64,000 bases of DNA from Rubellimicrobium aerolatum (GTDB lineage Bacteria > Pseudomonadota > Alphaproteobacteria > Rhodobacterales > Rhodobacteraceae), in NCBI RefSeq assembly GCF_017872975.1, contig NZ_JAGGJP010000011.1:1-64000 (forward strand), in the 5' to 3' direction. The notes under the pieces were generated by a model. The model saw only the letters and a program-made list of their open reading frames with translations, did not search any database and was not told where the DNA came from. Below, piece by piece: positions 62-26,541 of this stretch (position 1 is the stretch's first letter; the number at the start of each line of letters is the position of its first letter). Made by a program: the position numbers and the translations under genes.

Positions 62-441
62 GAACAGGCTCCGCTGCGGACAAGGGCAGCTTACGAGGTT
101 CTCACGTCCCTGCAACCGCATCTGCATGAGAGATACAATAACAAATAAACGTTGAGGACCGGCCGTGCTCATGTTGGCGAGCAACAGATCGTCAAGAAGA
201 GGGCGCAAGCTGAGCTCCTCCCCAGAAGCACCCAGACACTTGGGACCAGTTGGAAAGTGCCCAACTGTTGCGCCAAAGCTTGTCTTCCCTCGCCAGCATA
301 CGGAGCCTATGCGAGGAGCAATGCTTGTTGCAAAAACACTTAATGTAAAAAAAATTGCAGTATAGGTAAATACGCAATCTGCTGTGTCAAGGGCTGTTGG
401 AGGCAGCTCTCGTCATGGCGGAGCCCCACGGGAGGACATAC
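62..441. other. Intergenic region between pyc and the first ABC operon
   Basis: No convincing gene lies here; the short ORFs have no recognisable product. The stretch is more AT-rich than its surroundings. It contains a small inverted repeat (CAGTTGG at 247-253, CCAACTG at 261-267), an AT-rich block at 328-375 with one copy of the island's TGCAA-type palindrome, and the ribosome-binding site GGAGG at 431-435 for the gene starting at 442. The promoters of pyc (leftward) and of the ABC operon (rightward) should both be in this interval. Confidence 0.6.
344..359. promoter_or_regulatory. Candidate RpiR-type operator (TGTAA-N6-TTGCA)
   Basis: The sequence TGTAA, six A/T bases, then TTGCA lies about 80 bases upstream of the first ABC operon. 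It differs by one base from the perfect palindrome in front of the RpiR gene at 4941-4964. A TTGCAA at 328-333 could be a -35-like element or an extra half-site. The assignment to the RpiR regulator is inferred from the shared motif and gene neighbourhood. Confidence 0.5.
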
Positions 442-1458
442 ATGAAATTTATGACCCTGGCCCTTCTGGCCACGATGACGCTTGCCGGCTCGATGGCTGT
501 CGCGCAGGACGCCCCCAAGGTGTTCATGCTGCTGCCGAACGAAACCACGATCCGCTTCGAGAGCCGTGACGCGCCCTTCTTCACGGTCGCCATGTCCGAA
601 CTCGCGCCTGAAGCCGAGGTGATCGTGCAGAATGCCCAGGGCGATCCGGCCCGCCAGCAGGCGCAGGTCGAGGACGCCATCGCTCAGGGCGCAGCCGTCA
701 TCGTGCTGACCTCGGCCGACGCCAACCTTGTGGCTGGCGGGCTCGCGGCGGCCGAGGCGCATGTGGTGTTCGACTCGCTGGCGGTCGGTCGTGCCTAGGG
801 CGAGCGGGCGGCGCAGCTTATCGAGGCCATGGAGCAGACTCCGGTCCAGGTGGCGCGCGTCAAGGGCAACCAGGGCGAGTACGGCACCACCCAATACGAG
901 GCTGGCCAGAACGAGTTCATTCAGCCGCTGATCGACTCGGGCAAGGTCGAGATCGTCTGCGAGCAACATACGCAGAATTGGGACCCGGTGGTGGCTCAAG
1001 CCTTCGCCGAGGACTGCCTGACCCGCACGGGCGGCGAGGTGGACGTGTTCCTCGGCATGAACGATGGCACCACCGGCGGCTCGGTGGCCGCGCTCATCAC
1101 GCAAGGCTACCAACCGGGCGAGATCCTCGTCACCGGCGGTCAGGACGCGACCGTCGAGGCGCTGCGCTACATCGCGCAGGGCTGGCAGGACAACTCGGTC
1201 CTCAAGGATCTCAACGTCCAGGCCCGCCATGCGGCCGAGGTCGTGGCCTCGATCCTCAAGGGCGAAGGCGTGCCCCAGGATCTCGTGAACGGCACGGTCA
1301 ACAACCAGTACATGGACGTGACGGCGGTCTTCCTGCCCGTGTCGAACATCACCCAGGACAACCTGGCCGATGTGGTGACGGTCGGCGTCTGGACCTGGGA
1401 CGAGATCTGCCAAGGCATCGAGGACACCGAAGTCTGCCAGACCAGCAACCCGAACTGA
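442..1458 (+). pseudogene. Sugar ABC transporter substrate-binding protein (XylF-like), in-frame stop
   Basis: Periplasmic binding protein of a CUT2-type sugar importer. ATG at 442 follows GGAGG at 431-435. A signal peptide of about 22 residues ends in AVAQD. The first 118 codons end at TAG 796-798. Homologous sequence then resumes in the same frame (GERAAQLIEAM) and runs to TGA 1456-1458 with typical binding-protein features (FLGMNDGTTGG, LVTGGQDA). Around the stop, roughly 20 residues that XylF-type proteins have after the YDSL-like motif appear to be missing, so a small in-frame deletion may have made the stop. Without readthrough the product is truncated in its first lobe. It heads an operon with the ATPase at 1524 and the permease at 2361. 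Confidence 0.8.
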
Positions 1459-1467
1459 TGGTCTTCC

Positions 1468-1492
1468 GAGGGCGGCGGATCGCGCCGCCCTC
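1468..1492 (+). terminator. Hairpin between binding-protein and ATPase genes
   Basis: Perfect 10-bp inverted repeat GAGGGCGGCG / CGCCGCCCTC with a five-base loop, ten bases after the stop of the binding-protein gene. There is no U-tract, so it is more likely a partial terminator or mRNA-stabilising stem. Such stems raise binding-protein expression over the downstream transporter genes in many ABC operons. Confidence 0.55.
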
Positions 1493-1523
1493 TCGCCCCT
1501 GCCCGACGAGGAGCGCCAGCCCC

Positions 1524-2360: not shown

Positions 2361-3562
2361 ATGACATCGGTTCCCACCATGACGCCGCCTGTCAAGCGCC
2401 GCACCTTCGGCGAGCTTCTCTCCTCCGATCTCCGCGCGCTTCCGGTGCTCCTGGCGCTGGTGCTTCTTTGGGCCTTCTTCGCCATTCAGAGCGACGTCTT
2501 TCTCAGTCCGCGCAACCTGTCGAACCTCCTGATCCAGTCCACCGTCGTGGGGATCATGGCGCTGGGCCTGATGTTCGTCCTTCTCGTCAAGGAGATCGAC
2601 CTGTCGGTCGCCGCCATCAACGGCGTCACCTCGGTCTTCATGGCCAAGGCCATCGTGGAATGGGGCGCCTCACCTTGGATGGCAGTTCCCGCCGCCATCC
2701 TTCTGGGTGCCGGCATCGGCTCGCTCTCGGCGCGCTGGGTGAACTGGGTGGGCGTGCCGTCCTTCGTCGTCACATTGGGCTTGGGCCTTGCGCTCAACGG
2801 CCTTCAGCTCATCCTTCTGCCCGACACGGCACGTTACGGTCTCCAGGGCACCGGGATCGAGGCTGTGGCGCTGACCACCATCGGCGGAACCTGGGCGTGG
2901 ATCGCGCTCGCGGTAGGCATTGCGATCTTCGCGTCGCTGGTCCTGTCCAGCGTCGGCCGCCGCCGCCGTGCCGGGCTGGAGGTCAACGCCCGAAACGAGG
3001 TCGTGCTGCCTCTCGTGGGCGGGACCCTGTTCGGCATCGTCGTCGTGCCCTCCTGAACGCACACCAGGGCATCCCGCTGCCCGTGCTCATCTTCACGGCT
3101 CTCCTGGGCATCGGCGCCTACATTCTCAAGGAAACGCAGTTTGGCCTCTACCTCTATTCCGTCGGCAACAACGACGAAGCCGCGCGCCGCGCCGGCATCA
3201 AGGTCCGCTCGGTGCGGGTCGCCGCCTTTGCCATCGCCGGGGGCGTGGCCGCGCTGGCCGGCGTGATCGCCTCGGCACGGACCCTGGGCGTCGGCGTCTT
3301 CTCGGGTGGCGGAATCGGCGGCGGCACGCTGCTCCTCGAGTCCATCGCGGCGGCCGTCATCGGCGGCGTGAGCCTCTTCGGCGGTCGAGGCGGTGCCCAT
3401 GCCGCGCTCCTGGGCTGCCTCGTCATCGGCACGGTGTCGAACGGACTCAACCTGATGGGCGTCGAGAACGAGGTGCGGCTGATCGTGACCGGCCTCCTCC
3501 TCGTCCTCGCCGTGTCCATCGACAAGATCATCGAGAAAGCGACGGGGCAGCAGAGCTTCTGA
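2361..3562 (+). pseudogene. Sugar ABC transporter permease (XylH-like), frameshifted
   Basis: Membrane permease of the first importer. The first part reads from ATG 2361 to TGA 3054-3056 (231 aa) with several hydrophobic segments and the CUT2 motif VKEIDLSVAAI. The C-terminal half continues in another frame from about 3048 to TGA at 3560-3562, containing LYSVGNNDEAARRAGI and AAAVIGGVSLFGG. Restoring one G near 3047 (GTCGTG-CCCTCC to GTCGTGGCCCTCC) would rejoin both parts as VVVALLNAHQG, giving a normal length of about 400 aa. This is therefore a single-base deletion. A sequencing error is possible but less likely given the other lesions in the island. Confidence 0.85.
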
Positions 3563-4826: not shown

Positions 4827-4940
4827 GCCGAGCTTCCGTCTGACTTCATCTTCGCCCGAGGGGATGAGTAGGTCTCCTTAGGAGGGATGGCATCCGCGCT
4901 CCGATTGGATCCTCCAGATCATCATGGACATTCCCTATCG

Positions 4941-4964
4941 ATCCTGCAAAAAATATTGCAGGAT
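4941..4964. promoter_or_regulatory. Perfect palindromic operator upstream of the RpiR gene
   Basis: ATCCTGCAA and TTGCAGGAT form a perfect 9-bp inverted repeat around AAAATA. It lies 30 bases upstream of the GTG start of the RpiR-family regulator. This is the best copy of the TGCAA-N6-TTGCA motif in the window and fits autoregulation. A TGGACA at 4925-4930 could be the -35 element. Confidence 0.7.
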
Positions 4965-4993: not shown

Positions 4994-5872
4994 GTGGTCG
5001 ACGACAGCTTCACCGCACCCCGGTCCTACGAAGAGCTGATCCGTCTGATCCACGACCGCCATGCCGGGATGAGCAGGGCGTTCCAGAAGGTCGGCCTTTA
5101 CCTGACGCAGAACCCCAACGACGTGGGCGTGCTGTCGGTGGGTGCCATCGCGGAGCGCTGCGGCATCCATGCCTCGAACCTTGTGCGCTTCGCGCAAGCC
5201 CTGGGCTTCTCGGGCTTCAAGGAGCTCCAGCAGCTTTTTCGCATCCGGCTCACCACCGCAGCTCCGGGCTTCGACGCGCGGGTGCGCGCGCTCGAAGCCG
5301 AGTTGGGCGGTCGCGAGGATCGGAGCGAGCTCGGGTTCCTGCGTGACCTCGTGGTGCGAGACATCTCGTCGCTTCAGGATCTCATCGCCGACATCTCGGC
5401 CGAGCAGATCGCCCACGCCGTCACGCTGATGGAGAAGGCCGACACCATCTACCTGATGGGGCAGCTCCGCTCGGTGCCCGTGGTGGAACTCCTGCGCTAC
5501 GTGCTGACCATGTTGGGCAAGCGCACGGTGCTGCTCGACCCCGGAGGAGGCCTTGCCACGCACATGGCGCGGGCGGCGCGGCCCACGGACCTGCTCCTTG
5601 TGGTGTCCTTCCGCTTCTACGCCACCGAGGTCGTGAACGTGGCCGAGGAGACCTTGTCCCGCGGCGTGCCGCTGGTGGCCATTTCGGACAGCACGTTGTC
5701 GCCGATCGCGAAAGGTGCAGCCGTGCTCTTTGCCGTGCCTGAGCACGAGTACACCTTCTCGCGATCCTTGGCCGCGCCGATGTGCCTGGCTCAGGCGTTG
5801 GCGGTGGCCTTGGCTGCGCGGCTTCAGAACGACTCGGAGCAGCCGCGCATCCCGATCGTGACGACGGCCTAG
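4994..5872 (+). CDS. RpiR/MurR-family transcriptional regulator
   Basis: DNA-binding regulator of 292 aa. An N-terminal helix-turn-helix (about residues 15-95) includes SVGAIAERCGIHASNLVRFA and the RpiR-typical GFSGFKELQ. A C-terminal SIS sugar-phosphate-binding domain (about residues 125-265) contains IYLMGQLRSVPV and LLVVSFRFYATEVV. The start is GTG 4994 with GGAGG at 4979-4983. RpiR-family proteins of inositol clusters respond to pathway intermediates. The perfect palindrome just upstream and four similar sites at other island promoters make it the likely regulator of the whole island. The effector and sign of control are not shown by the sequence. Confidence 0.9.
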   Translation: MVDDSFTAPRSYEELIRLIHDRHAGMSRAFQKVGLYLTQNPNDVGVLSVGAIAERCGIHASNLVRFAQALGFSGFKELQQLFRIRLTTAAPGFDARVRALEAELGGREDRSELGFLRDLVVRDISSLQDLIADISAEQIAHAVTLMEKADTIYLMGQLRSVPVVELLRYVLTMLGKRTVLLDPGGGLATHMARAARPTDLLLVVSFRFYATEVVNVAEETLSRGVPLVAISDSTLSPIAKGAAVLFAVPEHEYTFSRSLAAPMCLAQALAVALAARLQNDSEQPRIPIVTTA

Positions 5873-6043
5873 TCGCCGGTTCGGGCGGACGGCCCTGGCA
5901 GGGTCATGGTCAGTTCATCATTTCAACGGCTTGCAGGTCGCGGCGCATCTTCCGCGCCATCTGCGGCTTACCTTCAGACGCCCTGCAGGTGGCGCAGCCC
6001 GCCCTGCAACAATGAATTGCACGATCACCCCTGAAATGCCTCA

Positions 6044-6077
6044 TTGACAATATTCGTTGATTGCAACAAATCTTGCG
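6044..6077 (+). promoter_or_regulatory. Promoter with RpiR-type operator upstream of the iolG copy
   Basis: TTGACA at 6044-6049 is a consensus -35 element. The operator TGCAA-CAAATC-TTGCG starts 18 bases after the T of TTGACA (6062-6077) and covers the expected -10 region. A looser TGCAA-N7-TTGCA pair occurs upstream at 6005-6021. Operator over -10 suggests repression. The same layout, including the preceding TCATTGACA, recurs at 19811. Confidence 0.65.
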
Positions 6078-6111
6078 GCAACCAACAGAATAGTACGCCT
6101 TGGAGGGGACT

Positions 6112-7111
6112 ATGTTACGGATAGCCGTGCTGGGCTGCGGTCGCATCGGTCAGATGCATGCCGCCAATGTTGCGCGCCACCCTGGCCGGGGTCTTCGACC
6201 TGCATCAGCCGTCCGCCGACCGCGTGGCCGCCGCGCAAGGGGCCCAGGCCTTCGCCAGCGCCGAGGAGGTGTTCGCCTCGCCGGACGTCGATGCGGTCCT
6301 GATCGCCACGGCCACCCCGACCCATGCCGACTACATCGAGATGGCCGTCGCCGCCGGCAAGGCCGTGCTCTGCGAGAAGCCCATCGACCTGGGCCTTGAG
6401 CGGGTCGAGGCCTGCGCCGCCAAGGTCGCGGGGACGCGCCTGCCGATCCAGATCGGCTTTAACCGCCGCTACGACCCCGGCCATGCCGCCGCACGCGCCG
6501 CGATGCTGGCCGGCGAGATCGGCGACCTGCATCAGGTCATCATCACCTCGCGCGATCCCGGCCTGCCGCCCCGCGCCTATCTGGAAGCGGCGGGAGGTCT
6601 CTTCCGCGACATGACGATCCACGACTTCGACCTCGCGCGCTTCATGCTGGGCGAGGAGCCGGTCGAGGTCTTCGCCTTGGCCAACGCGCTGATCGACCCG
6701 GAGCTGGGAGTCGCCCTGAACGAGGTGGACAGCGCGATGTTCATCCTGCGCACGGCGTCGGGCAAGCAGTGCCACATCAACAACTCGCGCACGGCGGTCT
6801 ATGGCTACGACCAGCGGGTCGAGCTGATGGGCACCAAGGGGATGGTGATCTCCGACAACCGCAAGCCGCACGAGATGCGCCGCTTCACCGCCACCTCGAC
6901 CGAGGGCGCGGAGCCCGATCAGTTCTTCTTCCTCGAACGCTACCACGAGGCCTTCATGGCCGAGATCGATGGCTTCGTGGACTGCGTCGAGAAGGGCGCT
7001 CAGCCACTGGCCAGCTTCGAGGACGGGCGGCGGGCGCTGATCCTGGCCGAGGCCGCTTACCGTTCCCTGAGGGAGGGGCGCCTCGTGAAGGTGGCGGAGA
7101 TCGCCAACTAG
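6112..7111 (+). pseudogene. iolG: myo-Inositol 2-dehydrogenase-like gene (IolG type), frameshifted
   Basis: The gene starts at ATG 6112 after GGAGGGG (6102-6108) with LRIAVLGCGRIGQMHAANVA, a Rossmann motif typical of IolG. At about 6180-6184 the frame breaks: a small deletion (probably eight bases) between RHP and LAGVFD moves the rest into another frame, which is then open to TAG 7109-7111. That part has the EKP lysine motif, GFNRRYDP, and DMTIHDFD with the catalytic Asp and His of inositol dehydrogenases (NAD-dependent oxidation of myo-inositol to 2-keto-myo-inositol). The full length would be about 330 aa. A downstream start could only make a protein without the nucleotide-binding strand, so the gene is probably dead. 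Confidence 0.85.
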
Positions 7112-7380
7112 ACCGCATCGGCCGCGGCCCAGCCGGGAGGGGGCGGGCCCGCGGAACTGAGGAAGGAGCAACGCAAGACGCATGATCCGTAGCTCGCGGC
7201 CCGTATCGGCCGCGCGCCTGGACAAGTCTTGTCTCCCCGCTACCCCGACCGACGATCCGAGCCCGCAAGGCGCATTCGGATGCAACCCACGACCTGCGCG
7301 GTTGGATCGGCCAGCCCGCAGACCCGAAGCGGACCCGACCAAAGTGGCCGCCACAATCAACGAATCAACTGGAGGAAGAC

Positions 7381-8436
7381 ATGGAAGTTGGAACAACCCT
7401 GAGATTCGGCCGCCGCGCCGTCGTGGCGGCGATCGGCGCCGCCCTGCTGGCGTCCACGGCCACCGTGGCGCTGGCGCAGAACGCCGACGTGCAGATCGGC
7501 TTCACGCCGAAGTTCCTGAAGGACGACTTCCAGACCCTGATGCTGGAACTCTCGCTTCAGGCCTTCGCCGACAAGGGCTTTACCGTCGTGGGCTCGCCCG
7601 ACCCGAACGGCGACATCTCGGCGCAGGTCGATACGCTCCAGAACCTCCTGGCCAACGGCGCCAACGTGATCGTCTTCGCGCCCCTCGACGCGGCGGGCAT
7701 CGTCCCGGCCGTGGAGCGCGCCAACGAGGCTGGCGCGCTGGTCTTCTCGATCAACGACTCGCCGGCGGGCGGTCAGGTGACGGCGACCGTGCGGGCCGAC
7801 AACCTCGATGCCGGCGTGCAGGGCGCGACCGAGATGGTGGCCCGTCTCCAGAACGACGCCTGCTGGGCCGACAATTCCTGCGTCGTGCTCGAACTCCAGG
7901 GCTCGCTGACCACGCCGAACGGGCTCGACCGCTCCGAGGGCTTCTCCACGACCCTGGCCGAGCTGGCCCCCGAGGTGGAGCTGATCCAGCGCCCGACGGA
8001 ATGGACGGCCGACATGGCCGCCGATGCGGCGCAGAACGTGCTGACGCAATACCCCGAGCTCGACGGCATCTTCATGGCCTCCGAGCTGATGGCGACGGCG
8101 ATCAACGCGCAACTGAAGTCCGCAGGCCGGGACACCCCGGTCGGCGACGCGGCCTCGGTGATCCGCGTGGCGATCGACGGCACGCCGCAGGGCCTGCAGC
8201 TGATCCGCGAGAACGCGCTCGATGCCACCGTGTCGCAGCCGCTGAGCGCCTATGCGACCAAGACGGCCGAACTGATCGAACTGGTGTCGAACGGCGGCAC
8301 CATCGAGATCGGCCCGCGCGACGACGGCCAGGTGATCGAGACCCCCGTCGGCCCGCAATACCAGCTCAAGGCGACGCTGGTCACGATGGACAACGTCGAC
8401 TCGCCCGATCTTTGGGCCAACCAGCTCAACAACTGA
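7381..8436 (+). CDS. Sugar ABC transporter substrate-binding protein (RbsB-like)
   Basis: Intact periplasmic binding protein of 351 aa. ATG 7381 follows GGAGGAAG. The signal peptide has a twin-arginine-like GRRAV followed by a hydrophobic stretch and probable cleavage at ALAQ (about residue 33). The peripla_BP_4 fold is indicated by IGFTPKFLKDDFQ, NGANVIVFAPLDAAG and the hinge region VIRVAIDGTPQGLQLI. It is followed by a tandem ATPase and a permease, making a second CUT2 importer. A perfect odd palindrome GACAAG-T-CTTGTC lies upstream at 7221-7233 and is an unassigned operator candidate. The ligand (inositol, another polyol or sugar) cannot be read from the sequence. Confidence 0.88.
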   Translation: MEVGTTLRFGRRAVVAAIGAALLASTATVALAQNADVQIGFTPKFLKDDFQTLMLELSLQAFADKGFTVVGSPDPNGDISAQVDTLQNLLANGANVIVFAPLDAAGIVPAVERANEAGALVFSINDSPAGGQVTATVRADNLDAGVQGATEMVARLQNDACWADNSCVVLELQGSLTTPNGLDRSEGFSTTLAELAPEVELIQRPTEWTADMAADAAQNVLTQYPELDGIFMASELMATAINAQLKSAGRDTPVGDAASVIRVAIDGTPQGLQLIRENALDATVSQPLSAYATKTAELIELVSNGGTIEIGPRDDGQVIETPVGPQYQLKATLVTMDNVDSPDLWANQLNN

Positions 8437-8449
8437 GGCCCGTCCGTCA

Positions 8450-9958
8450 GTGACAATCGTGGAACCGAAGATCATGGACATGACCCAGCCCATCGTCGAG
8501 ATGCGCGACATCACGAAGACCTTCGGTTCCACGCGCGCCCTCCGAGGCGTGGATTTCACGGTCATGCCGGGCGAGATCCACGCGCTTCTGGGCCGCAACG
8601 GCGCGGGCAAGAGCACGCTCGTGTCCGCGCTGAGCGGCGTCACCCCCGCCGACGCCGGCACCATCCGCATCGGCGGAACCAGCGTGACCGCGAACGGCCA
8701 GAGCTACGCCGCCGCGATCCGCGACGAGATCGCCCATGTGCAGCAGACGCCACGGCTCTTCGACCAGCTCACGGTCGCCGAGAACCTGTTCCTGGAGAAC
8801 CCGGTCGTCCGCAAGCGGTATGGTCTGGTCAGCCACGGTCGGATGATCTCGCGCACCCAGGCCCTGCTGGACGAGTGGAGGATCGACATCCGCCCCACCG
8901 CCCTGGCCGGGCAACTGGACGCCGGCACGCGGCAGCTCCTGGAGATCATGAAGGCCCTGAACCGGGGCGTCCCGGTGATGATCCTCGACGAGCCGACCGC
9001 CGCCCTCAGCAACGCCGAGAAGCGCATCCTGTTCGATCATATCCGGGCGCTGAAGCTCCGGGGCGTGTCCTTCGTCTACATCTCGCATCACCTGGACGAG
9101 GTGTTCGAGGTCGCCGACACGGTGACCATCCTGCGCGACGGGCAGATCGTCACCGCGCGCGCCCCGGTGTCGAGCCTCGACGTGGAAACCATCGCCAACC
9201 TGATGATGGGGCAGGCGACCACCCGCAGCGAGCGCAGCGACACCACCGACGCGACCGCGCCGCCCCTGCTTCGGGCCAAGGGCATCCGCATCGGCCCGGC
9301 CCACGAGGCGACCGTCGATCTGGAGGTGCGCGGCGGCGAGATCGTCGCCCTGGCCGGTCCGGTCGGCAGCGGCAAGGAAAGCCTCGCCATGATCCTCGCG
9401 GGGCACCAGACGCCCTTCGGCGGAGAGATATCGAGCCCCCGGGGCAAGCTGCCGGTGATCGGCCTCGTGCCGACCGACCGGCACGCCAGCGGTTATGTCG
9501 GCATCCTCGGCGTGCGCGAGAACGTGGCGGCGGGCGGCCTCGACATCCTGTCGGGCCCGCTCGGCTTCATCAACCGGCGCAAGGAGCAGGAGCATGTCGG
9601 CCGCCTGGCCCGGCAGACCAACGTCATCGCCTCCTCGCTGGACCAGGCCGTCGGGCAGCTCAGCGGCGGCAACCAGCAGAAGGTCGTCTTCGCGCGATCC
9701 CTCTGCCGAAGTCCCGACGTCATCGTGGCCCTCAGTCCGACGCGCGGCGTCGATGTCGGCGCCAAGGAGCAACTCTACGCGCTGCTGCGCGACCTTGCCG
9801 CCAAGGGCATGGGAGTCGTCGTCGTCTCCGACGAGGAGGACGAAATCAGTCAGTTGGCAAACCGTGTCGTCATCGTCTTCGAAGGAGCGATCGTCGATGA
9901 ACTGGTCGGAGATTACAGCATGAAGGACCTAATCCTGCGGATGGAGGGCGTGGCATGA
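8450..9958 (+). CDS. Sugar ABC transporter ATP-binding protein, tandem ABC domains (RbsA-like)
   Basis: ATPase of the second importer with two ABC domains (502 aa from GTG 8450; ATG 8474 is an alternative start). Domain 1 (about residues 15-235) has Walker A GRNGAGKST and Walker B VMILDEPTAAL, but the signature region reads DAGTRQLLEI in place of LSGG. Domain 2 (about 265-495) has a degenerate Walker A GPVGSGKES, signature LSGGNQQKV and a changed Walker B VIVALSPTRG. Unequal tandem domains are normal for RbsA, MglA and XylG. It overlaps the following permease start by four bases (ATGA). Confidence 0.88.
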   Translation: MTIVEPKIMDMTQPIVEMRDITKTFGSTRALRGVDFTVMPGEIHALLGRNGAGKSTLVSALSGVTPADAGTIRIGGTSVTANGQSYAAAIRDEIAHVQQTPRLFDQLTVAENLFLENPVVRKRYGLVSHGRMISRTQALLDEWRIDIRPTALAGQLDAGTRQLLEIMKALNRGVPVMILDEPTAALSNAEKRILFDHIRALKLRGVSFVYISHHLDEVFEVADTVTILRDGQIVTARAPVSSLDVETIANLMMGQATTRSERSDTTDATAPPLLRAKGIRIGPAHEATVDLEVRGGEIVALAGPVGSGKESLAMILAGHQTPFGGEISSPRGKLPVIGLVPTDRHASGYVGILGVRENVAAGGLDILSGPLGFINRRKEQEHVGRLARQTNVIASSLDQAVGQLSGGNQQKVVFARSLCRSPDVIVALSPTRGVDVGAKEQLYALLRDLAAKGMGVVVVSDEEDEISQLANRVVIVFEGAIVDELVGDYSMKDLILRMEGVA

Positions 9959-10988: not shown

Positions 10989-10993
10989 TCGGC

Positions 10994-11023
10994 GTCGCGG
11001 CCTCATCCTTTGGAGGCCGCGAC
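10994..11023 (+). terminator. Hairpin after the second ABC operon
   Basis: Perfect 11-bp stem GTCGCGGCCTC / GAGGCCGCGAC with an eight-base loop, six bases after the permease stop. It lacks a U-run but its position fits an intrinsic or Rho-assisted terminator. The following 286 bases up to 11309 show no gene. Confidence 0.6.
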
Positions 11024-12638: not shown

Positions 12639-12660
12639 ACGAACAAGGCAGGAGATCAGG

Positions 12661-16003: not shown

Positions 16004-16046
16004 GTTTCGGCGGACCCGGAGCAGGATCACGAGCCCAAGACAAGGC

Positions 16047-16078
16047 ACCGGCTTGGCAGGCAGTGGAGCCAAGCCGGT
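16047..16078 (-). terminator. Hairpin downstream of the iolD-iolE-SDR operon
   Basis: Perfect 11-bp stem ACCGGCTTGGC / GCCAAGCCGGT with a ten-base loop, 27 bases past the stop of the leftward SDR gene. Its position fits termination of the minus-strand inositol operon. It lies just outside the transposon end. Confidence 0.6.
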
Positions 16079-16104
16079 TCCTACGGGGCCTGCGGTGCTC
16101 TACG

Positions 16105-17907: not shown

Positions 17908-19761
17908 TCAGACGCCCACGCGCTGCTTCTTGCGGATCGCATCCTGCGAAGTCCGCGCGTCCTGCACGGCAGGCCTCTCGGACACTTCCGGTACCCCCAC
18001 GTCCCAGTCGGCGTCGCCGGGGACCCAGGCATAGGCGTCGGTGCGCAACGAGATGACCGTCGTCCGGTCCGTGCCCTTGGCCCAGTCCAGGGCCGCTTCC
18101 AAGTCGCCCATGCTCTCGCAGTGCCGCGCCTCCGCGCCCATGGCGCGGGCGTGGGCCACGAAATCCACCGGGAAGGGCTCCCGGGCCGTGCGGCAGTCCT
18201 TGAGGAGGTTGTTGAACCCCGGCACCCCCTTGAACTGCTGGAGACGGTTGATGACCGCGTAGCCGCCGTTGTCACAGACCAGCACGACCAGCTTATGGCC
18301 GGACAGCACGGTCGAATAGATGTCCGAGTTCATCATCATGTAGGTGCCGTCGCCGATCATCACGATCGGCACGCCGTCGCCCTGCTTGGCCAGCGCGTGG
18401 CCCCAGCCCGCCGCGATCTCGTAGCCCATGCAGGAGAAGCCGAACTCCAAATCGAAGGTGTTCGGCTCCTTGACCCGCCAGCCCTTCATCAGTTCGCCCG
18501 GCAGGCCGCCCGCGGCCGTCACCACCGTATCGCGAGGGCCAGCCCAGCTGTTCACCGCCGCCACGACTTGCGCGTAGGTCGGCCGCTCGGCGTTCGTCGG
18601 CGCCTGATGCGTGTCGAGCAGCGCGTTCCACTCCGCGAAGAGCCCCCGCGCACGCTCCATGTGGGTGGCCGGCGCGGCCCAGTCGCCCAGGGCGGCGTCG
18701 AGTTCCCCCACCGTTTCCAGCGCATCGCCCACCACGGGCAGCGTGGAATGCTTGAGGGCGTCCCAACGCGCGGTGTTGATGCCGATGAAGCGGGCCTCTA
18801 GCTTGAAGGAGGTCCAGGACCCGGTGGTGAAGTCCATGAGCCTGGTGCCAATGGCGAGCACCACGTCCGCCTCGGCGGCGAGCGCGTTGGCCGAGGTGGA
18901 CCCCACGATGCCGATGGGCCCCGCGTGGACGGGATGCTCATGCGTGAGCGTCCCCTTCCCGGCGATGGTCTCCACGACCGGGATGCCGCGCTTCCTCGCG
19001 AACTCCGCCACGGCCTCGCTCGCACCCGAGTAGCGCACGCCACCGCCGGAGATGATGAGAGGCGTCTTCGCGTCGCGCAGGACGTCGGCCGCGCGGGCGA
19101 CGGCCCGGCGGTCGGGCCGAGGTCGCGGGATCTCCCACAGCCGGGGCGCGAAGAACGCGGCGGGGTAGTCGTAGGCCTTCTCCTGCGTGTCCTGGCAAAG
19201 CGCCAGGAACGCCGGCCCGCAGTCCGCCGGATCGAGCATGGTGGCGACCGCCTGCGGCAGGGAGGCGAGGATCTGTTCTGGCAGGGAGATCCGGTCCCAG
19301 TAGCGCGTGACGGCCTTGAAGGCGTCGTTCACTGTGACCGTCGGGTTCCCGTAATGCTCCACCTGCTGCATCACCGGATCGGGCACGCGGCTGGCGAAGC
19401 TGTCGCCGGCCAGAAGCAGCACCGGCAGCCGGTTGGCATGCGCCGTCCCGGCCGCCGTCAGCATGTTGGTCGCCCCCGGTCCGATCGAGGAGGTGGCAAC
19501 CATGAGTTGCCGGCGTCGCTGGGCCTTGGCGAAGCCCACGGCGGCCAGTGCCATGCTCTGCTCGTTCTGTCCCCGCCAGGTGGGCAGGCGGTCCTGCACG
19601 CCCTCCAGCGCCTCGGACAGGCAGGTGACGTTGCCGTGCCCGAAGATCGCGAAGCATCCCGCGAAGAGAGGCACCCGCCGGCCATCCAGCTCCGTCTCCT
19701 GCGCGCACAGCCAGCGCACGAGCGCCTGCGCCATCGTCAGGCGGATCGTGGTCCCTGTCAT
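17908..19761 (-). CDS. iolD: 3D-(3,5/4)-trihydroxycyclohexane-1,2-dione acylhydrolase
   Basis: IolD is a thiamine-diphosphate enzyme that opens the cyclohexanedione ring to 5-deoxy-D-glucuronate. The 617-aa protein has the three ThDP-enzyme domains: an N-terminal PYR domain with FAGCFAIFGHGN and the catalytic-type Glu in WRGQNEQSMA, a central domain, and a C-terminal PP domain with the GDG...N cofactor motif (MIGDGTYMMMNSDIY). The start ATG 19761 has GGGAGGGG upstream. It is first in the operon iolD-iolE-SDR. Its promoter lies in the divergent region 19762-19866, which also holds an RpiR-type operator. The length matches the family. Confidence 0.95.
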   Translation of the reverse strand: MTGTTIRLTMAQALVRWLCAQETELDGRRVPLFAGCFAIFGHGNVTCLSEALEGVQDRLPTWRGQNEQSMALAAVGFAKAQRRRQLMVATSSIGPGATNMLTAAGTAHANRLPVLLLAGDSFASRVPDPVMQQVEHYGNPTVTVNDAFKAVTRYWDRISLPEQILASLPQAVATMLDPADCGPAFLALCQDTQEKAYDYPAAFFAPRLWEIPRPRPDRRAVARAADVLRDAKTPLIISGGGVRYSGASEAVAEFARKRGIPVVETIAGKGTLTHEHPVHAGPIGIVGSTSANALAAEADVVLAIGTRLMDFTTGSWTSFKLEARFIGINTARWDALKHSTLPVVGDALETVGELDAALGDWAAPATHMERARGLFAEWNALLDTHQAPTNAERPTYAQVVAAVNSWAGPRDTVVTAAGGLPGELMKGWRVKEPNTFDLEFGFSCMGYEIAAGWGHALAKQGDGVPIVMIGDGTYMMMNSDIYSTVLSGHKLVVLVCDNGGYAVINRLQQFKGVPGFNNLLKDCRTAREPFPVDFVAHARAMGAEARHCESMGDLEAALDWAKGTDRTTVISLRTDAYAWVPGDADWDVGVPEVSERPAVQDARTSQDAIRKKQRVGV

Positions 19762-19810: not shown

Positions 19811-19844
19811 TTGACAGCGCAATACAGTTGCAACAAAGATTGCA
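19811..19844 (+). promoter_or_regulatory. Promoter with RpiR-type operator in the iolD divergent region
   Basis: TTGACA at 19811-19816 is followed, 18 bases from its start, by the exact operator TGCAA-CAAAGA-TTGCA (19829-19844). Spacing and flanks (TCATTGACA) match the promoter at 6044, so the two are probably duplicates. The TTGACA orientation drives rightward transcription into the iolG remnant at 19867 and the aldehyde dehydrogenase operon. The operator is also placed to affect leftward iolD transcription. Confidence 0.68.
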
Positions 19845-19866: not shown

Positions 19867-20139
19867 ATGCGAAGGATCGCCCTGCCGGGCCATGGCCACA
19901 TCTGGAGCATCCACGCCGGTGTCATCGCAGCGCCGGCCCAGCGAAGGCTGTCGCGTGTCTACGATGCGGCCTCCCTTGTGTCCACTGACCCGGCTCGACT
20001 TCGCCTTGCCGCTGCCTTCGTTGGCACCAAGGCGGCCGGGGTCGGCCTTGGTGTGGCTGTCCGCCTCGGGATGCCAACTGACGCCGCGCTGAAACCGGCT
20101 GCCGGAACGCGTGCCCCCCACCTCAATCAGATCGGGTGA
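19867..20139 (+). pseudogene. Inositol dehydrogenase (IolG-like) N-terminal remnant
   Basis: ATG 19867 has a strong GGGGAGG (19854-19860) six bases upstream. The first 40 or so codons match the IolG N-terminus in outline: RIALPGHGHIWSIHAGVIAA against the usual RIALLGxGRIGxIHAGNIAA, then RLSRVYDAAS. Glycines of the dinucleotide motif have been replaced (LPGHGHIW). After about 20020 the family similarity is lost and the frame reaches TGA 20137-20139. The rest of the gene (over 270 codons) is missing, and the aldehyde dehydrogenase gene follows within five bases. This looks like an internally deleted, mutated first gene of the rightward operon. Confidence 0.65.
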
Positions 20140-20143
20140 TCTC

Positions 20144-21583
20144 ATGTATCAGTCCTATGGGCTGTTCCTCGATGGCGCTTGGCGCGCCGCATCGAACGGC
20201 GCCTCGGCGCCGGTCCTGAGTCCGGTGACCGACCAGCCCCTCGGCAAGGTTCCGTTGGCGACCGCGGCCGACACGGCCGAAGCCATCGACGCCGCCGAGC
20301 GGGGGCTTGCGGTCTGGCGGGCCCTGGGCAACTTCGCCCGCGCCGATGCGCTGCACCGCATCGCTGACGAGATGACCCGGCGCAGGGACGAAGCGGCACG
20401 TATGATCTCCTCCGAGACCGGCAAGCCCCTCGCGCAGGCCGAGCGGGAGTGGGGTCTGTCGATCGACCAGTTCCGTTGGTACGCCGAGGAGGCCCGTCGC
20501 ATTTCCGGCCGGATCGTGGAAAGCCGCGTCCTCGGCGGACGCTTCGAGATCACGAGCGAGCCCGTGGGGGTCTGCGCGGCCTTCACGGCCTGGAATTTCC
20601 CGGCGGCGCTGGTGGCCCGCAAGGTGGCCCCCGCGCTGGCGGCGGGCTGCGCCACGATCGTCCGGCCGTCCAGCCAGACGCCAGGCGTCGCGATGCTGAT
20701 GGTGGACTGCTGTCGGGCGGGGAACCTGCCTGCCGGGGTCGTCCAGCTCCTCGTCGGCCCGACCGATGCGACCTACGCGCCCTTGATGGCCGACAAGCGG
20801 GTGCGCAAGGTCTCGCTCACCGGCTCGACCCGCGTGGGCCAGCAGATGATCCGCGACGCCGCCGCGACGGTGAAAAAGGTGTCGATGGAGCTTGGCGGCA
20901 ACGCGCCGTTGATCATCTATGACGACGCAGACCTGGATTTGGCGCTGAACGTCTCGGTCCCGACCAAGTTCGCAAACGCCGGCCAGGTCTGCGTGACGGC
21001 GGACCGCTTCTACGTCCACGAGTCCTTGCACGACGCCTTCGTCGAGGGCTTCGTCGCACGCGCGCAGGCCCTCAAGGTCGGCGACGGGCTCGATCCGACG
21101 ACGCAGATGGGTCCGCTTATCTCGCGGAGGCGGCTCGAGGAGATCGAGGGCATCGTCGCCGACGCCATCAAGGCGGGCGCGACGCTCGCCTCCGGAGGCA
21201 AGCGCGCGTCCGGCTTCAACGCCGGCCATTTCCACGAGCCCACGGTGCTGACCGACGTCACCGACGATATGCGCGTGATGGCCGAGGAGAACTTCGGCCC
21301 CATCGCCGCGATCACGCGCTTCACCAGCGACGACGAGGCCCTGAGCCGCGCCAATTCCACCGACATGGGCCTGTCCGCCTACGCCTTCACCCGCTCGCCG
21401 CAACGGGCACGTCGCACGGTGGCCGAGCTCAAGGCCGGGATGGTCGGCATCAACAGCTTCGCCATGGCGGCGGCCGAGGCCCCCTTCGGCGGGACGGCCT
21501 TCTCGGGCCTGGGCCGCGAGGGCGGTCCCGAGGGGATCGACGCCTATCTCGACACCAAGCTCGCGCAGATGGTGTGGCTATGA
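20144..21583 (+). CDS. NAD(P)-dependent aldehyde dehydrogenase (succinate-semialdehyde dehydrogenase-like)
   Basis: Aldehyde dehydrogenase of 479 aa. Cofactor-binding motif LTGSTRVGQQM, catalytic Glu in MELGGNAPLI and catalytic Cys in NAGQVCVTADRF are all present, as is the AWNFP motif in the first half. Overall pattern is closest to GabD-type succinate-semialdehyde and related dehydrogenases. The start is ATG 20144, five bases after the iolG remnant. It overlaps the aldolase gene by ATGA. Paired with an HpcH/HpaI aldolase it could oxidise the aldehyde released by aldol cleavage. It is not the CoA-acylating methylmalonate-semialdehyde dehydrogenase (IolA) of the standard inositol route. Confidence 0.88.
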   Translation: MYQSYGLFLDGAWRAASNGASAPVLSPVTDQPLGKVPLATAADTAEAIDAAERGLAVWRALGNFARADALHRIADEMTRRRDEAARMISSETGKPLAQAEREWGLSIDQFRWYAEEARRISGRIVESRVLGGRFEITSEPVGVCAAFTAWNFPAALVARKVAPALAAGCATIVRPSSQTPGVAMLMVDCCRAGNLPAGVVQLLVGPTDATYAPLMADKRVRKVSLTGSTRVGQQMIRDAAATVKKVSMELGGNAPLIIYDDADLDLALNVSVPTKFANAGQVCVTADRFYVHESLHDAFVEGFVARAQALKVGDGLDPTTQMGPLISRRRLEEIEGIVADAIKAGATLASGGKRASGFNAGHFHEPTVLTDVTDDMRVMAEENFGPIAAITRFTSDDEALSRANSTDMGLSAYAFTRSPQRARRTVAELKAGMVGINSFAMAAAEAPFGGTAFSGLGREGGPEGIDAYLDTKLAQMVWL

Positions 21584-22395
21584 CCCAGCTCCGCGACCTC
21601 TGGGCCCAAGGCAAGCCAGTCCTCAACGGCTGGCTGTCCATCGGCAACGCCTTCACGGCCGAGATCATGGCTGCCCAAGGCTACGACAGCGTCACCATCG
21701 ACGTGCAGCACGGGGCGCTGGACTACTCCTCGGCCTTACCGATGCTGCAAGCGATGCGCGCCTCCGGGGTGGTCCCCATGGCGCGCGCGCCCTGGCGCGA
21801 GCCCGGCATCATCATGAAGCTCCTCGACGCGGGCGCCCTGGGGATCGTCTGCCCGATGGTGAACACGGCCGAAGAGGCAGCAGAGTTCGTGAGCTTCCTG
21901 CGCTACCCTCCACGCGGGCAGCGCAGCTTCGGGCCCACGCGGGTGGGGGTGGCCCATGGGCTGGCCGCCTATGCGCGCGACGCCAACGACCTCGTCCTCG
22001 GCTTCGCGCAGATCGAGACGTCCGAGTCGATGGCGAACCTCGATGCGATCGCGGCCACCCCCGGCCTCGACGGCCTCTACGTCGGACCGGCCGACCTCGC
22101 CCTCGGCCTGAGCGACGGCCGTCTCTCGCCGGGCTTCGATCGCGAGGAGCCCGAGATGATCGACGCCATCAAGGAGGTCCTGGCCGCCGCTCACCGCCAC
22201 GGCATCAAAGCCTGCCTCCACTGCGGGACGCCCGACTACGCCGCCCGCGCCGTGGGCTGGGGCTTCGACCTCGTGACCGTCTCGGGCGACTCGCGCCTCC
22301 TCGCGGCCGCGGCCAGCGCCTCCGTGGCGAAGTTCCGAGAATTGGCAGCGCAGGGGGAAAAGCCAGTCGCGGTCGCTGCTGAGGGAGGCTACTGA
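21580..22395 (+). CDS. HpcH/HpaI-family aldolase
   Basis: Class II metal-dependent pyruvate aldolase of the HpcH/HpaI/GarL family (271 aa), which cleaves 2-keto-4-hydroxy acids to pyruvate plus an aldehyde. Key motifs are VTIDVQHGALD (catalytic base region), MARAPWREPG (substrate-binding Arg), FAQIETSESMANLD with the metal-ligand Glu, and GLYVGPADLALGLS with the metal-ligand Asp. The start ATG 21580 overlaps the aldehyde dehydrogenase stop. In this operon it could act on a keto-deoxy acid formed from the opened inositol ring; that substrate is an inference. Confidence 0.9.
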   Translation: MTQLRDLWAQGKPVLNGWLSIGNAFTAEIMAAQGYDSVTIDVQHGALDYSSALPMLQAMRASGVVPMARAPWREPGIIMKLLDAGALGIVCPMVNTAEEAAEFVSFLRYPPRGQRSFGPTRVGVAHGLAAYARDANDLVLGFAQIETSESMANLDAIAATPGLDGLYVGPADLALGLSDGRLSPGFDREEPEMIDAIKEVLAAAHRHGIKACLHCGTPDYAARAVGWGFDLVTVSGDSRLLAAAASASVAKFRELAAQGEKPVAVAAEGGY

Positions 22396-23387
22396 TGCCG
22401 CATCTGCTCATCGCCGGAAAGCTGCACCCTGCGGGCCTTGGGGTCCTCAAGGCTACGCCGGGGCTGACCTACGACTATGTCGAGGAGGTCTCCGAGACTT
22501 CTTATGCCCCGCTGATCGACAGGGCCGATGCGCTGGTGCTGCGCACCCAGCCCCTGTCGGCCGCCACCGTGGCGCGAGCCGGGCGCCTGAAGGTCGTCTC
22601 CCGCCACGGCGTGGGCTATGACGCCGTGGACATCAAGTCCCTCGACGCCCGCGGCATCGCGCTGGCCGTCGTCGGCGACGTCAACTCCGTCTCGGTGGCC
22701 GAGCACGCGATGATGATGCTTCTCGCCTGCGCCAAGAGGGCGGTGGCGGCTGACCGCGCCGTGCGCAACCCCGCGCGTTGGGGCTGGCGCAACCAACTCG
22801 AGGCTTCCGAGATCTCCGGCCGCAGGCTTCTGATCCTGGGCTATGGCCGCATCGGGCGGCACCTGGCGCGCATGGCCCGGGGCTTCGGGATGGAGGTGCG
22901 GGCCTTCGATCCGTTCTTGGCGGCGCAAGGCTGGCCGGATGGGGACACGACGGCCCCTGTAAGCTCGCTTTCGGAGGGTTTGGCCTGGGCCGATGCGGTC
23001 TCTGTCCATGCGCCGAAAGGCGAGCGCCCTCTTCTCGATGTGGCAGAACTGTCGCTGCTCCAGCCCGGGGCGATTCTGGTCAACACGGCTCGTGGCGGCG
23101 TGGTGGACGAAGGGGCGCTAGCTGACGCCCTCGCCTCGGGACGTGTAGGCGCGGCCGGCCTCGACGTCTTCGACGATGAGCCGCCAAATCCCGACCACCC
23201 GCTCCTCGCTTTCGAGCAGGTGCTTCTCTCGCCGCACATCGCCGGACTAACGGCCGACGCCGCCGAGCGCATGGCCGTGGCCTCCGTCCGAAACGCCCTC
23301 GACTACCTCGACGGCCGGCTCGACCCGGCCCTTCTCGTCAACAAGGACGCACTCGCATGTCACGTTCTCCCCTCCGCGTCGGCCTGA
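22395..23387 (+). CDS. D-2-hydroxyacid dehydrogenase (phosphoglycerate dehydrogenase-like)
   Basis: NAD-dependent 2-hydroxyacid dehydrogenase of 330 aa. The Rossmann motif ILGYGRIGRHLARM lies near residues 145-160. Catalytic residues of the family are seen: Arg in NTARGGVVDE, Glu in DVFDDEPPNP and His in LLSPHIAGLT. It lacks the C-terminal ACT domain of SerA, so it is more likely a catabolic enzyme reducing a 2-keto acid or oxidising a hydroxyacid than a serine-biosynthesis enzyme. The ATG shares one base with the aldolase stop (TGATG), and its end overlaps the next gene by 31 bases. Confidence 0.88.
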   Translation: MPHLLIAGKLHPAGLGVLKATPGLTYDYVEEVSETSYAPLIDRADALVLRTQPLSAATVARAGRLKVVSRHGVGYDAVDIKSLDARGIALAVVGDVNSVSVAEHAMMMLLACAKRAVAADRAVRNPARWGWRNQLEASEISGRRLLILGYGRIGRHLARMARGFGMEVRAFDPFLAAQGWPDGDTTAPVSSLSEGLAWADAVSVHAPKGERPLLDVAELSLLQPGAILVNTARGGVVDEGALADALASGRVGAAGLDVFDDEPPNPDHPLLAFEQVLLSPHIAGLTADAAERMAVASVRNALDYLDGRLDPALLVNKDALACHVLPSASA

Positions 23388-24475: not shown

Positions 24476-25452
24476 GCCTCGCGGTCGGGATCATCGGCGC
24501 GGGGGTCATGGGCGCCTTCCATGCCCGTCTTCTGCGCGAAGGGACGGGGCACGCCCGCCTCGCAGCCGTCTGCGACACCGATCCCCAACGGGCGGCGCAA
24601 GCCGCCGAGGGCGCGCGAGTCCATTCCGACCCTCTCGCCCTCATCGCCGACCCGCAGGTGGAGGCGGTGGTCGTGGCCTCCCCCGACGCCACCCATGCCC
24701 CCCTGGCGCTGGCCTGCCTGGCCGCCGGCAAGCCCGTGCTGCTGGAGAAGCCCATCGCCGCCACGGCCGCCGAGGGTTGGCGCGTGTTGGAGGCCGAGGC
24801 CGCGCGAGGCCGCCGCCTCGTGACGGTGGGCTACATGCGCCGCTTCGACGCCGCCTACCTGGAGATGAAGTCCGTGGCGGACACGGGTGACATCGGCACG
24901 CCCGTCCTGCTGCACAACGTCCACCGCAACCCCTCCGCGCCCGACTGGTTCGCCGGCCCCATGCCGATCACCAACTCCTTCGTCCACGAGATCGACGTCA
25001 GCCGCTGGCTCCTGGGCTCCGAGATGGTGGCGGCTCGCGTTCACGCGGGGCCGGGCGGCGAGCCGCTCCTCATCGCCCTGACCACCGACCGGGGCGAGCT
25101 CGTCTCGACCGAGGTCAACATCAACGCTCGCTACGGCTACCACGTCCACGCCGAGCTGGTGTGTCGCGAGGGCACCATCTCCATGGCCCAGCCCGAGTTG
25201 ACAGCTGTCAACTCCGCCCTCCGCCACGCCTCGGCCTACCCGGACAACTGGGTGCCCCGCTTCGCGCAGGCCTACCGCGACCAGATGCAGGCCTGGGTCC
25301 GGTCCGTCAGCAGTGGCATCCCGGTCGGCGCCTCCGCCTGGGACGGCTACTGCGCCACCGCTGTCGCCGAGCAGGTGGCGCAAGGGCTCGACGGCTGCGA
25401 GGTGCAGGTCACGCTGCCTCCGATTCCTGCCCTCTATGAAGCCGCAAGATAG
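24472..25452 (+). CDS. Gfo/Idh/MocA-family oxidoreductase, probable inositol 2-dehydrogenase
   Basis: A 326-aa NAD-dependent dehydrogenase. Rossmann motif VGIIGAGVMGAFHARLL, lysine motif LLEKPIA, VGYMRRFDAAYLEM, NVHRNPSAP and a VHEID motif with the family His/Asp near residue 178. The MRRFD, HRN and VHEID set matches the inositol 2-dehydrogenase branch found in actinobacterial and proteobacterial iol clusters. As both IolG-type copies at 6112 and 19867 are broken, this may be the enzyme that still makes 2-keto-inositol. It is the last gene of the tightly coupled operon 20144-25452. Confidence 0.83.
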   Translation: MSLAVGIIGAGVMGAFHARLLREGTGHARLAAVCDTDPQRAAQAAEGARVHSDPLALIADPQVEAVVVASPDATHAPLALACLAAGKPVLLEKPIAATAAEGWRVLEAEAARGRRLVTVGYMRRFDAAYLEMKSVADTGDIGTPVLLHNVHRNPSAPDWFAGPMPITNSFVHEIDVSRWLLGSEMVAARVHAGPGGEPLLIALTTDRGELVSTEVNINARYGYHVHAELVCREGTISMAQPELTAVNSALRHASAYPDNWVPRFAQAYRDQMQAWVRSVSSGIPVGASAWDGYCATAVAEQVAQGLDGCEVQVTLPPIPALYEAAR

Positions 25453-25561
25453 GAACACGGTCCGCTAAGACCCCACCTCGCCTAGGCAGGGCTCAACCCG
25501 ACACCTGAAACTCTCAAGGCAGCCGTCCCGTCTGCCTCATCTGCTTCCCTAGGAGACTTCC

Positions 25562-26413
25562 ATGCCATCGCTCACCTTCGCCATGAACCGCACTTGTGCC
25601 CCCCACCTGCCGCTTGGCGAGTTCATCGCGCTGGCCCGAGGCGCTGCCGTCTCGGCTGTCGAGATCCGCAACGACGTGGCCGGGCAGGAGTTCATGGATG
25701 GAACCCCGGCCGCCGATTTGCGCCGTCGCCTCGACGATGCGGGGCTCAAGGTCGCGTCCGTCAACGCCCTGCAACGGTTCAACGATTGGACGTCCGAGCG
25801 CGAAGCAGAGGCTCGAGCCCTGATCGCGTATGCTGCCAAGTTGGGGGCGCCGGGACTCGTCATGTGCCCGGTCATCGATGAAGCGCATGGCTGGTTGGAG
25901 GCGGAACTGGAACGCAATCTGCGCGACGCGTTGCGGGGCCTGCGTCCGATATTAGCTGACCAAGGCGTTACGGGCTATGTCGAGCCCCTGGGCATGAGGG
26001 GCTCGACCCTCATGCGGCAGGCCAAGGCCGTCGAGGCAGTGGCCGACATCGACGGCTGGGACAATTTCGCGCTCTGCTACGACACGTTCCAGTACTTCCG
26101 CTGCGGCGACGACCGAACCGTCCCGCAGCATGTCGGGCTGGTCCATGTGTCCGGCATCTCACGAAGCGACCTGACGCCCGGCGAACTGAGTGAGCCGGAC
26201 CGGGAACTGGTTTTTGTCGATGACCGAGTGGGAAACGTGGTCCAGTTGCGTGCATTGGCATCAGCGGGCTTCAAGGGTTATGTTTCCATGGAGCCGTTCA
26301 GCCCCCGTATCCAGCAAGATCCCTCGCTCGGGACGCGCCTGCAGGCCAGCTTTGCCTACCTGAATGCGGCAGTTGGTGCGGAAGGGACGTCCATGCAGCG
26401 GGCCGGTGCTTAG
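25562..26413 (+). CDS. iolI: 2-Keto-myo-inositol isomerase-like TIM-barrel protein
   Basis: Sugar phosphate isomerase/epimerase-family TIM barrel of 283 aa. It starts TFAMNRTCAPHLPLGEFI with VEIRNDVAGQEF and NALQRFNDW, as IolI proteins do. IolI interconverts 2-keto-myo-inositol and 1-keto-D-chiro-inositol. Metal-ligand regions are visible at TGYVEPLG, CYDTFQY, GLVHVSGI and YVSMEPF. The start ATG 25562 follows CCTAGGAGAC. A 109-base gap separates it from the upstream operon, so it may have its own promoter or be a late gene of that operon. Its presence extends the island's range to inositol isomers. Confidence 0.83.
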   Translation: MPSLTFAMNRTCAPHLPLGEFIALARGAAVSAVEIRNDVAGQEFMDGTPAADLRRRLDDAGLKVASVNALQRFNDWTSEREAEARALIAYAAKLGAPGLVMCPVIDEAHGWLEAELERNLRDALRGLRPILADQGVTGYVEPLGMRGSTLMRQAKAVEAVADIDGWDNFALCYDTFQYFRCGDDRTVPQHVGLVHVSGISRSDLTPGELSEPDRELVFVDDRVGNVVQLRALASAGFKGYVSMEPFSPRIQQDPSLGTRLQASFAYLNAAVGAEGTSMQRAGA

Positions 26414-26506
26414 GGGCGCCAAGCGAATGGTACGAGACAGACCGCCGAGGCTCTTGCTGCTCAGCTCAACAGAGTCGTTGACCCTACGGTGTGCCAGAAG
26501 TAATTT

Positions 26507-26541
26507 TTGACAGAGTGATGAATTATGCAATTTTTTCTGCG
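26507..26541 (+). promoter_or_regulatory. Promoter with RpiR-type operator before the dioxygenase/ABC remnant operon
   Basis: TTGACA at 26507-26512 is followed 19 bases from its start by TGCAA-TTTTTT-CTGCG (26526-26541), a weaker copy of the island operator with two changed bases in the right arm. The layout copies the promoters at 6044 and 19811. It would drive the dioxygenase pseudogene and the third ABC transporter. Confidence 0.55.

Follow-up and report, generated by a model that had tools for sequence, protein, structure and literature searches.

A TGCAA-N6-TTGCA operator family predicted for an RpiR-type regulator of inositol genes in Rubellimicrobium aerolatum and its relatives

Introduction

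Which regulator acts at the palindrome TGCAA-N6-TTGCA, which recurs in front of inositol genes on an island in the genome of the alphaproteobacterium Rubellimicrobium aerolatum (Rhodobacteraceae), and how would it do so? We analysed positions 1 to 64,000 of contig NZ_JAGGJP010000011.1 (assembly GCF_017872975.1), referred to here as the window, which carries iolD, iolE and iolG together with a gene for an RpiR-type regulator (rpiR, 4994..5872, forward strand). A reading of the letters alone, the original prediction, had proposed that five copies of the palindrome form a candidate regulon of this protein. From the comparisons described below, six sites in the window are very probably operators of the 4994-5872 protein, which would repress by occluding promoters and be released by an intermediate of inositol breakdown.

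The regulator combines an N-terminal HTH_6 domain (PF01418, 43 bits) with a C-terminal SIS domain (PF01380, 50.2 bits), both above the gathering score. It shares family and domain order with HexR, MurR, AlsR and other RpiR regulators, the substrates of which differ, but matches the NCBIfam models of HexR, MurR and AlsR weakly, far under every cut-off. IolR of Caulobacter crescentus and Sinorhizobium meliloti is likewise an RpiR-family protein that is associated with inositol genes and an operator of two short halves around 6 bp (PMC2597717, PMC8877191). The operator described for C. crescentus is GGAA-N6-TTCC (PMC2597717), and the inducer of IolR is given as 2-deoxy-5-keto-gluconate 6-phosphate (DKGP) (PMC8877191, citing Kohler 2011).

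Results

Six sites in the window

Sites were scored with a weight matrix of 20 columns, built from 178 distinct core sites in 90 loci, with the window left out. The loci comprise 80 that contain relatives of the 4994-5872 protein (the branch loci, which are the best 80 of 109 in a collection of genome contigs) and 10 plasmid loci from the branch and its nearest kin, nine of which are annotated. A site was called strong at 15 bits or more in the locus counts, and the chance simulation used a threshold of 16.9 bits.

The six best places in the window score 17.0-24.7 bits, and the seventh reaches 5.0 bits. In order of rank, and listed without strand, they are TGCAAAAAATATTGCA at 4945..4960 (24.7 bits; perfect, in a 9-bp inverted repeat upstream of rpiR), TGCAACAAAGATTGCA at 19829..19844 (22.7 bits; perfect, in the divergent iolD/iolG promoter region), TGCAACAAATCTTGCG at 6062..6077 (20.5 bits; one mismatch, upstream of iolG), AGCAATGCTTGTTGCA at 317..332 (19.3 bits; exact GCAA-N6-TTGC core), TGCAATTTTTTCTGCG at 26526..26541 (17.2 bits; two mismatches, upstream of a broken PhyH-type gene) and TGTAAAAAAAATTGCA at 344..359 (17.0 bits; one mismatch, upstream of a sugar-binding protein gene). 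Five of them, ranks 1, 2, 3, 5 and 6, are the palindromes of the original prediction, all with correct coordinates on re-inspection; the site at 4945-4960 is perfect and lies within a real 9-bp inverted repeat, and 19829-19844 is exact. The number five was too low, as the site at 317-332, which shares a promoter region with 344 and begins 27 bp ahead of it, had been overlooked. The further claim that the core half of the window is free of sites agrees with a best score of 2.1 bits there. A place with one mismatch at 111-126 was considered as an additional site and rejected, because it scores only 3.8 bits; it is probably a chance match. Paired sites at 29-bp spacing recur in relatives (8 pairs); since the pair in the window is 27 bp apart, we make no claim on spacing.

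The site set in the window is not a product of chance. Over 600 simulated 64-kb windows, sites reaching 16.9 bits averaged 0.008 per window, and no simulated window had more than one. Many equally good matches at other places in the genome had been named as an outcome that would speak against a regulon. In the 3.76 Mb of the R. aerolatum genome (59 contigs) the perfect palindrome occurs only twice, at 4945 and 19829, both inside the window, and six of the 19 places with at most one mismatch lie in these 64 kb as well. The core GCAA-N6-TTGC has 33 occurrences, four of them in the window. Of the remaining 29, 20 are copies of a single GC-rich sequence, GCAACGCCCGTTGC (for example C2:132398, C2:408052, C5:88201 and C10:35581), several of them within a longer shared stretch like CTAAAATGCCACGCAACACGCAACGCCCGTTGC; these copies resemble a dispersed repeat.

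The motif in relatives of the regulator

The palindrome emerges from the branch loci without being supplied. A count of all 5-mer dyads (gaps 0-12) over the 400 bp preceding the rpiR relatives put TGCAA-N6-TTGCA first (21 of 80), and the runner-up, GCAAT-N4-ATTGC (9 of 80), is a nested form of the same palindrome; the core GCAA-N6-TTGC was found for 39 of the 80 rpiR relatives. The geometry is specific. The 80 loci contain 70 perfect sites at a gap of 6, compared with 0-4 at every other gap from 0 to 14, and the next best of 60 arm permutations yields 21 sites.

In the nine annotated plasmid loci, where about 10% of the sequence is intergenic, 33 of 36 strong sites are intergenic. The genes behind them are iolD (8 loci), iolG (7), rpiR (6), aldehyde dehydrogenase (5), Gfo/Idh (3) and binding-protein genes (3). 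In the four loci with divergent iolD and iolG (L150, L151, L159 and L160), the distance from the site is 64-67 bp to iolD and 21-23 bp to iolG; for the 19829 site of the window, it is 68 bp to the start of iolD and 22 bp to the start of an iolG remnant. Seven of eight further family loci that were outside the matrix training have a site above 22 bits and a -35 box at offset 18, kinship to the training loci being possible. The unprompted appearance of the motif upstream of rpiR relatives, its intergenic placement and its tracking of the protein clade (see below) support the candidate RpiR regulon. In seven Bradyrhizobium loci (L056, L058, L063, L065, L067, L070 and L071), TGCAA-type sites are found in two places upstream of rpiR.

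Overlap of the operator with promoters

Many of the sites stand at a fixed distance from a promoter element. Of 471 oriented contexts, 97 have a TTGACA box (at least five of six positions) that begins at offset 18 upstream of the operator, corresponding to 96 of 238 strong sites and 71 of 90 loci; the remaining 73 offsets tested within 6-79 reach 0-10 contexts each. Oriented by the promoter, the operator reads TGCAA-YRATTA-TTGCA, a 16-bp palindrome. With an 18-nt spacer, the -10 box would, in our assignment, be the R-A-T-T-A-T inside the operator.

The promoter-offset scan of the window, on the forward strand, found TTGACA at an offset of exactly 18 nt upstream of two operators, that of iolG (6044..6049) and that of iolD/iolG (19811..19816). 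These two are the only exact matches in the genome to the composite TTGACA-N13-GCAA-N6-TTGC. A further TTGACA lies 19 nt before the 26526 operator (26507..26512), and for the rpiR operator a putative -35 box, TGGACA, begins 20 nt upstream (4925..4930). A protein bound to the operator must block the -10 box, and therefore repression by promoter occlusion is the natural reading.

Relation to IolR

The nearest named relative of the window protein is found in Rubellimicrobium mesophilum (89% identity, contig scan), and beyond the Rhodobacteraceae the branch and its nearest kin extend to Rhizobiales, Acetobacteraceae, Pseudomonas, Pantoea and Klebsiella. More distant relatives in the family (28-35%) include canonical IolR, several of them adjoining iolC. 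For comparison, we used 15 IolR loci of the window's family, including L173, which has a wrongly placed gene start at a contig edge and was omitted from the tree. In a tree of 65 of the 116 sequences, with about one third of the 80 branch loci and every other group kept, the 14 IolR rows form one clade (support 100/99). The window protein, about 31% identical to the IolR of its family, belongs to the sister clade (100/100), which unites the branch with kin of 50-55% identity from Shinella, Pararhizobium, Pantoea and Klebsiella; TGCAA sites are present in this kin too.

The operators follow the same division. Perfect sites in the 80 branch loci number 70 of the TGCAA type and none of the TGGAA type, whereas the 15 IolR loci contain none and 19, respectively. 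In the IolR loci, TGGAA-N6-TTCCA, which corresponds to the GGAA-N6-TTCC motif described for C. crescentus IolR (PMC2597717), is the commonest upstream dyad (8 of 15); it is present perfectly in 11 of 15, and in 12 of 15 when one mismatch is allowed with a full core. In the 10 plasmid loci of the branch and its kin, 33 sites are of the GCAA type versus one of the GGAA type (L153, one mismatch). The predicted operators of the branch and of IolR thus differ by one base per half-site, TGCAA versus TGGAA. A fixed -35 distance was not seen at canonical IolR sites in the 50 contexts searched.

Three residues of the regulator, 64, 67 and 76, follow the clade split, being Val, Ala and Lys in the window protein and Met, Cys and Ser in IolR, and are candidates for the switch in operator specificity. 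Residue 60 of the helix-turn-helix (Ala; Pro in IolR) was rejected as the switch, since the intermediate kin have Pro yet TGCAA sites.

Linked genes

The neighbourhood of the branch regulators contains a recurring gene set. Within flanks of at most 10 kb, with both sides full in 45 of the 80 loci, relatives of the window's genes were found for iolD (66 loci), iolE (58), the aldolase (57), the hydroxyacid dehydrogenase (56), the aldehyde dehydrogenase (51) and iolG (43). In the window itself, iolD (17908..19761, reverse strand), encoding trihydroxycyclohexane-dione hydrolase (TIGR04377, 811 bits; start codon read from the sequence), runs leftward from the divergent operator, and family matches identify genes for an SSADH-type aldehyde dehydrogenase, an HpcH/HpaI aldolase and a 2-hydroxyacid dehydrogenase at 20144..23387 on the forward strand. 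In L150 (Paracoccus ferrooxidans) and L159 (Rhizobium daejeonense) the cluster also has a pyruvate carboxylase gene, just before rpiR.

Relatives of the iolC and iolB of R. aerolatum were found in none of the 80 branch neighbourhoods at 40% identity within these flanks. As a positive control, the same iolC query matched in 8 of the 15 IolR loci and in the plasmid locus L151, where iolC lies about 10 kb away, and the iolB query matched in L154. The branch clusters are like the inositol catabolic clusters surveyed in PMC9430895 in having iolD, iolE and an inositol dehydrogenase; unlike the surveyed clusters, for which the definition in that paper required at least three of iolB, iolC, iolD and iolE together, they lack iolB and iolC and would therefore go uncounted under it.

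The regulator could in principle be a canonical IolR with a drifting operator that senses phosphorylated DKGP. It has the domain family, the dyad geometry and the inositol-gene neighbourhood of IolR, and canonical iolC and iolB are present in the genome of R. aerolatum, on another contig of 4.75 kb with iolC at its beginning (C42:1-4752); among nine other family genomes with a branch protein, seven have iolC above the curated cut-off. In relatives, an IolR gene precedes iolC; no close IolR gene was found in the R. aerolatum assembly. However, the window protein falls outside the well-supported IolR clade, the perfect operators of the two sets do not overlap, GGAA-N6-TTCC is not its predicted operator type, no relative of iolC or iolB was found in the 80 branch neighbourhoods at the 40% threshold, and two of the nine genomes (G094 and G109) have no iolC above the cut-off. 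We consider a drifting IolR unlikely.

Another regulator of the island could also own the sites, for example a LacI-family protein, as these likewise use palindromic operators. LacI genes occur in two of the nine annotated plasmid loci. Among the 80 branch loci, 7 contain relatives of the two encoded proteins, so that a cognate LacI gene is seldom linked to the sites. A site of at least 20 bits is present in 65 loci, 60 of which have no relative of these two LacI proteins, the search being confined to them and not extended to other regulator families. Many loci moreover have the site in front of rpiR itself, and it agrees in geometry with the operator described for the paralogue IolR (PMC2597717), which makes ownership by a LacI-type protein very unlikely.

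Island structure

Many genes of the island look broken, and the operators before several of them are intact. The gene for a XylF/ChvE-like periplasmic sugar-binding protein (442..1458, forward strand) has an in-frame TAG ending at 798, giving open frames 397-798 and 829-1458, the second of which matches the family. The inositol 2-dehydrogenase gene iolG (6112..7111, forward strand), followed by sugar ABC transporter genes, has a frame break near its start; its open frame 6158-7111 matches TIGR04380 with 363 bits (cut-off 355). Behind the divergent operator, we read the sequence at 19867..20139 (forward strand) as an iolG-like remnant, where the flanking matches are about 31 bp apart in R. mesophilum and about 310 bp apart in the window. 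Altogether, genes that look broken by stops or frame breaks lie at 442-1458, 2361-3562, 6112-7111, 9955-10988, 19867-20139 and 26627-27913, namely those for the binding protein and two permeases, iolG, the iolG remnant and the PhyH gene. Either the island is decaying or the assembly contains errors.

Between the ABC transporter genes and iolE, at 13099-16156, lies a gene for a Tn3-family transposase that is spread over two reading frames. In R. mesophilum (L039), rpiR is directly followed by the part that matches the window from 16104, so that the window has about 10 kb more at this place (5870-16104), with iolG, the transporter and the Tn3 element.

Discussion

The six sites are, in our assessment, very probably operators of the RpiR-family protein, and a number of observations weigh against this. 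A count of mismatches within the window alone is hardly informative, with 13 matches at up to two mismatches against 8.7 expected, a number reached by 11 of 100 shuffles; this test was too weak and was replaced by the matrix from relatives, the kind of scan that had been proposed as a check and that placed the five claimed sites and 317-332 on top. The matrix has its own limit, as the presence of a strong site in 74 of the 80 loci is not independent support, because the training sites were selected by pattern from those same loci. The other six loci have no strong site, three of them on contigs of at most 6 kb, and of the eight further family loci one on a short contig (L184) has weak sites only and lacks the -35 box. 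When dyads are counted over whole loci, GCAAT-N4-ATTGC leads (49 of 80), GC-rich dyads come next (41-47), and TGCAA-N6-TTGCA (40 of 80) is outside the top seven dyads listed, GC-rich chance dyads blurring this count.

Further counterpoints concern the promoters and the regulator gene itself. The sites at 317 and 344 have no TTGACA at offset 18-20 in the forward sense; if 344-359 overlies the -10 region, site 317 would lie across the -35 region. Allowing up to three mismatches, the composite of -35 box and operator is not commoner in the genome than a reversed control (33 and 32 versus 32 and 43). A strong site precedes rpiR in only one of nine family loci with a branch gene (L021, 27.9 bits), and the dyad count before rpiR in these nine does not bring up the motif. 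The five nearest-kin loci have no perfect dyad before rpiR, though all five carry one elsewhere in the locus. Autoregulation is not universal in the branch.

Two loci fit poorly. The protein of L158 (Paracoccus seriniphilus, 53% identical), a long row inside the branch in the tree, has no TGCAA site, and its neighbours are TRAP-transporter and oxidoreductase genes, with no inositol genes among them; it may have acquired a different role. L154 (Azospirillum, 40%), outside both clades, adjoins iolD, iolE, iolG and iolB and has neither operator type. In R. aerolatum, the sites are placed upstream of island operons and of rpiR, as had been claimed, but several genes behind them look broken, and the regulon may therefore be partly non-functional in this strain. 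Finally, the perfect string is present in 132 of 149 genomes of the family, which rules it out, taken by itself, as a marker of genomes carrying a branch RpiR; context is therefore needed. An alternative is that AT-rich intergenic regions carry the palindrome mainly as an element of promoters or of DNA structure and not as an operator. This notion, suggested by the wide occurrence of the string and by the overlap with the -10 box in many promoters, is hardly tenable given that the conserved G and C positions (GCAA...TTGC) fall outside the -10 box, that the gap is exactly 6, and that none of the 15 canonical IolR loci contains a perfect TGCAA-N6-TTGCA.

That RpiR is the binding protein, and that it represses, we infer from these sequence facts. 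In the mechanism that we propose, an RpiR dimer, or more than one at paired sites, would sit on the operator and exclude RNA polymerase, so repressing its own gene here together with the operons for inositol uptake and breakdown. An intermediate of the breakdown would bind to the SIS domain, whereupon the repressor would leave the DNA. As the linked cluster lacks the IolC kinase, 5-deoxyglucuronate, a product derived from it or another acid without a phosphate group is the probable inducer; an inducer different from that of IolR is expected, because DKGP would not arise in a route without IolC.

The gene set of the branch, without iolB and iolC, suggests such a kinase-free route of inositol breakdown. 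Judging from the enzyme families, 5-deoxyglucuronate formed by IolD would be oxidised by the aldehyde dehydrogenase and then by the 2-hydroxyacid dehydrogenase, and the HpcH/HpaI aldolase would split the product into hydroxypyruvate and malonate semialdehyde. At 27910-28722 the window encodes a substrate-binding protein like the rhizopine-uptake family (NF052284, 236 bits, below the cut-off of 420), which hints at methyl- or amino-inositols as substrates. Taken further, the branch could constitute a second, parallel inositol regulon in alpha- and gammaproteobacteria, in which the operator split of one base per half lets both repressors coexist without cross-talk, the pathway controlled is an undescribed kinase-free one, and the SIS domain senses an unphosphorylated acid. 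We put this larger proposal forward tentatively, at somewhat less than an even chance.

Among open-access papers, we recognised no description of this operator or of a kinase-free inositol route. A regulator-operator pair of the IolR type is already known; what sets the present pair apart is the altered half-site, the overlap with promoters at a fixed position and another set of linked genes. The analysis provides a predicted binding site and promoter map, ready to be tested, for a widespread regulator clade of which the window protein reaches no NCBIfam cut-off. It also describes a natural pair of paralogous regulators with predicted operators that differ at one symmetric base, which suits the study of how specificity changes in the RpiR family. 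The TGCAA-type sites in the seven Bradyrhizobium loci may, as a lead, bear on the report that the IolR motif was not found by the inositol genes of Bradyrhizobium japonicum (PMC2597717). The branch clusters also point to a route of inositol breakdown that surveys keyed to iolB and iolC would miss.

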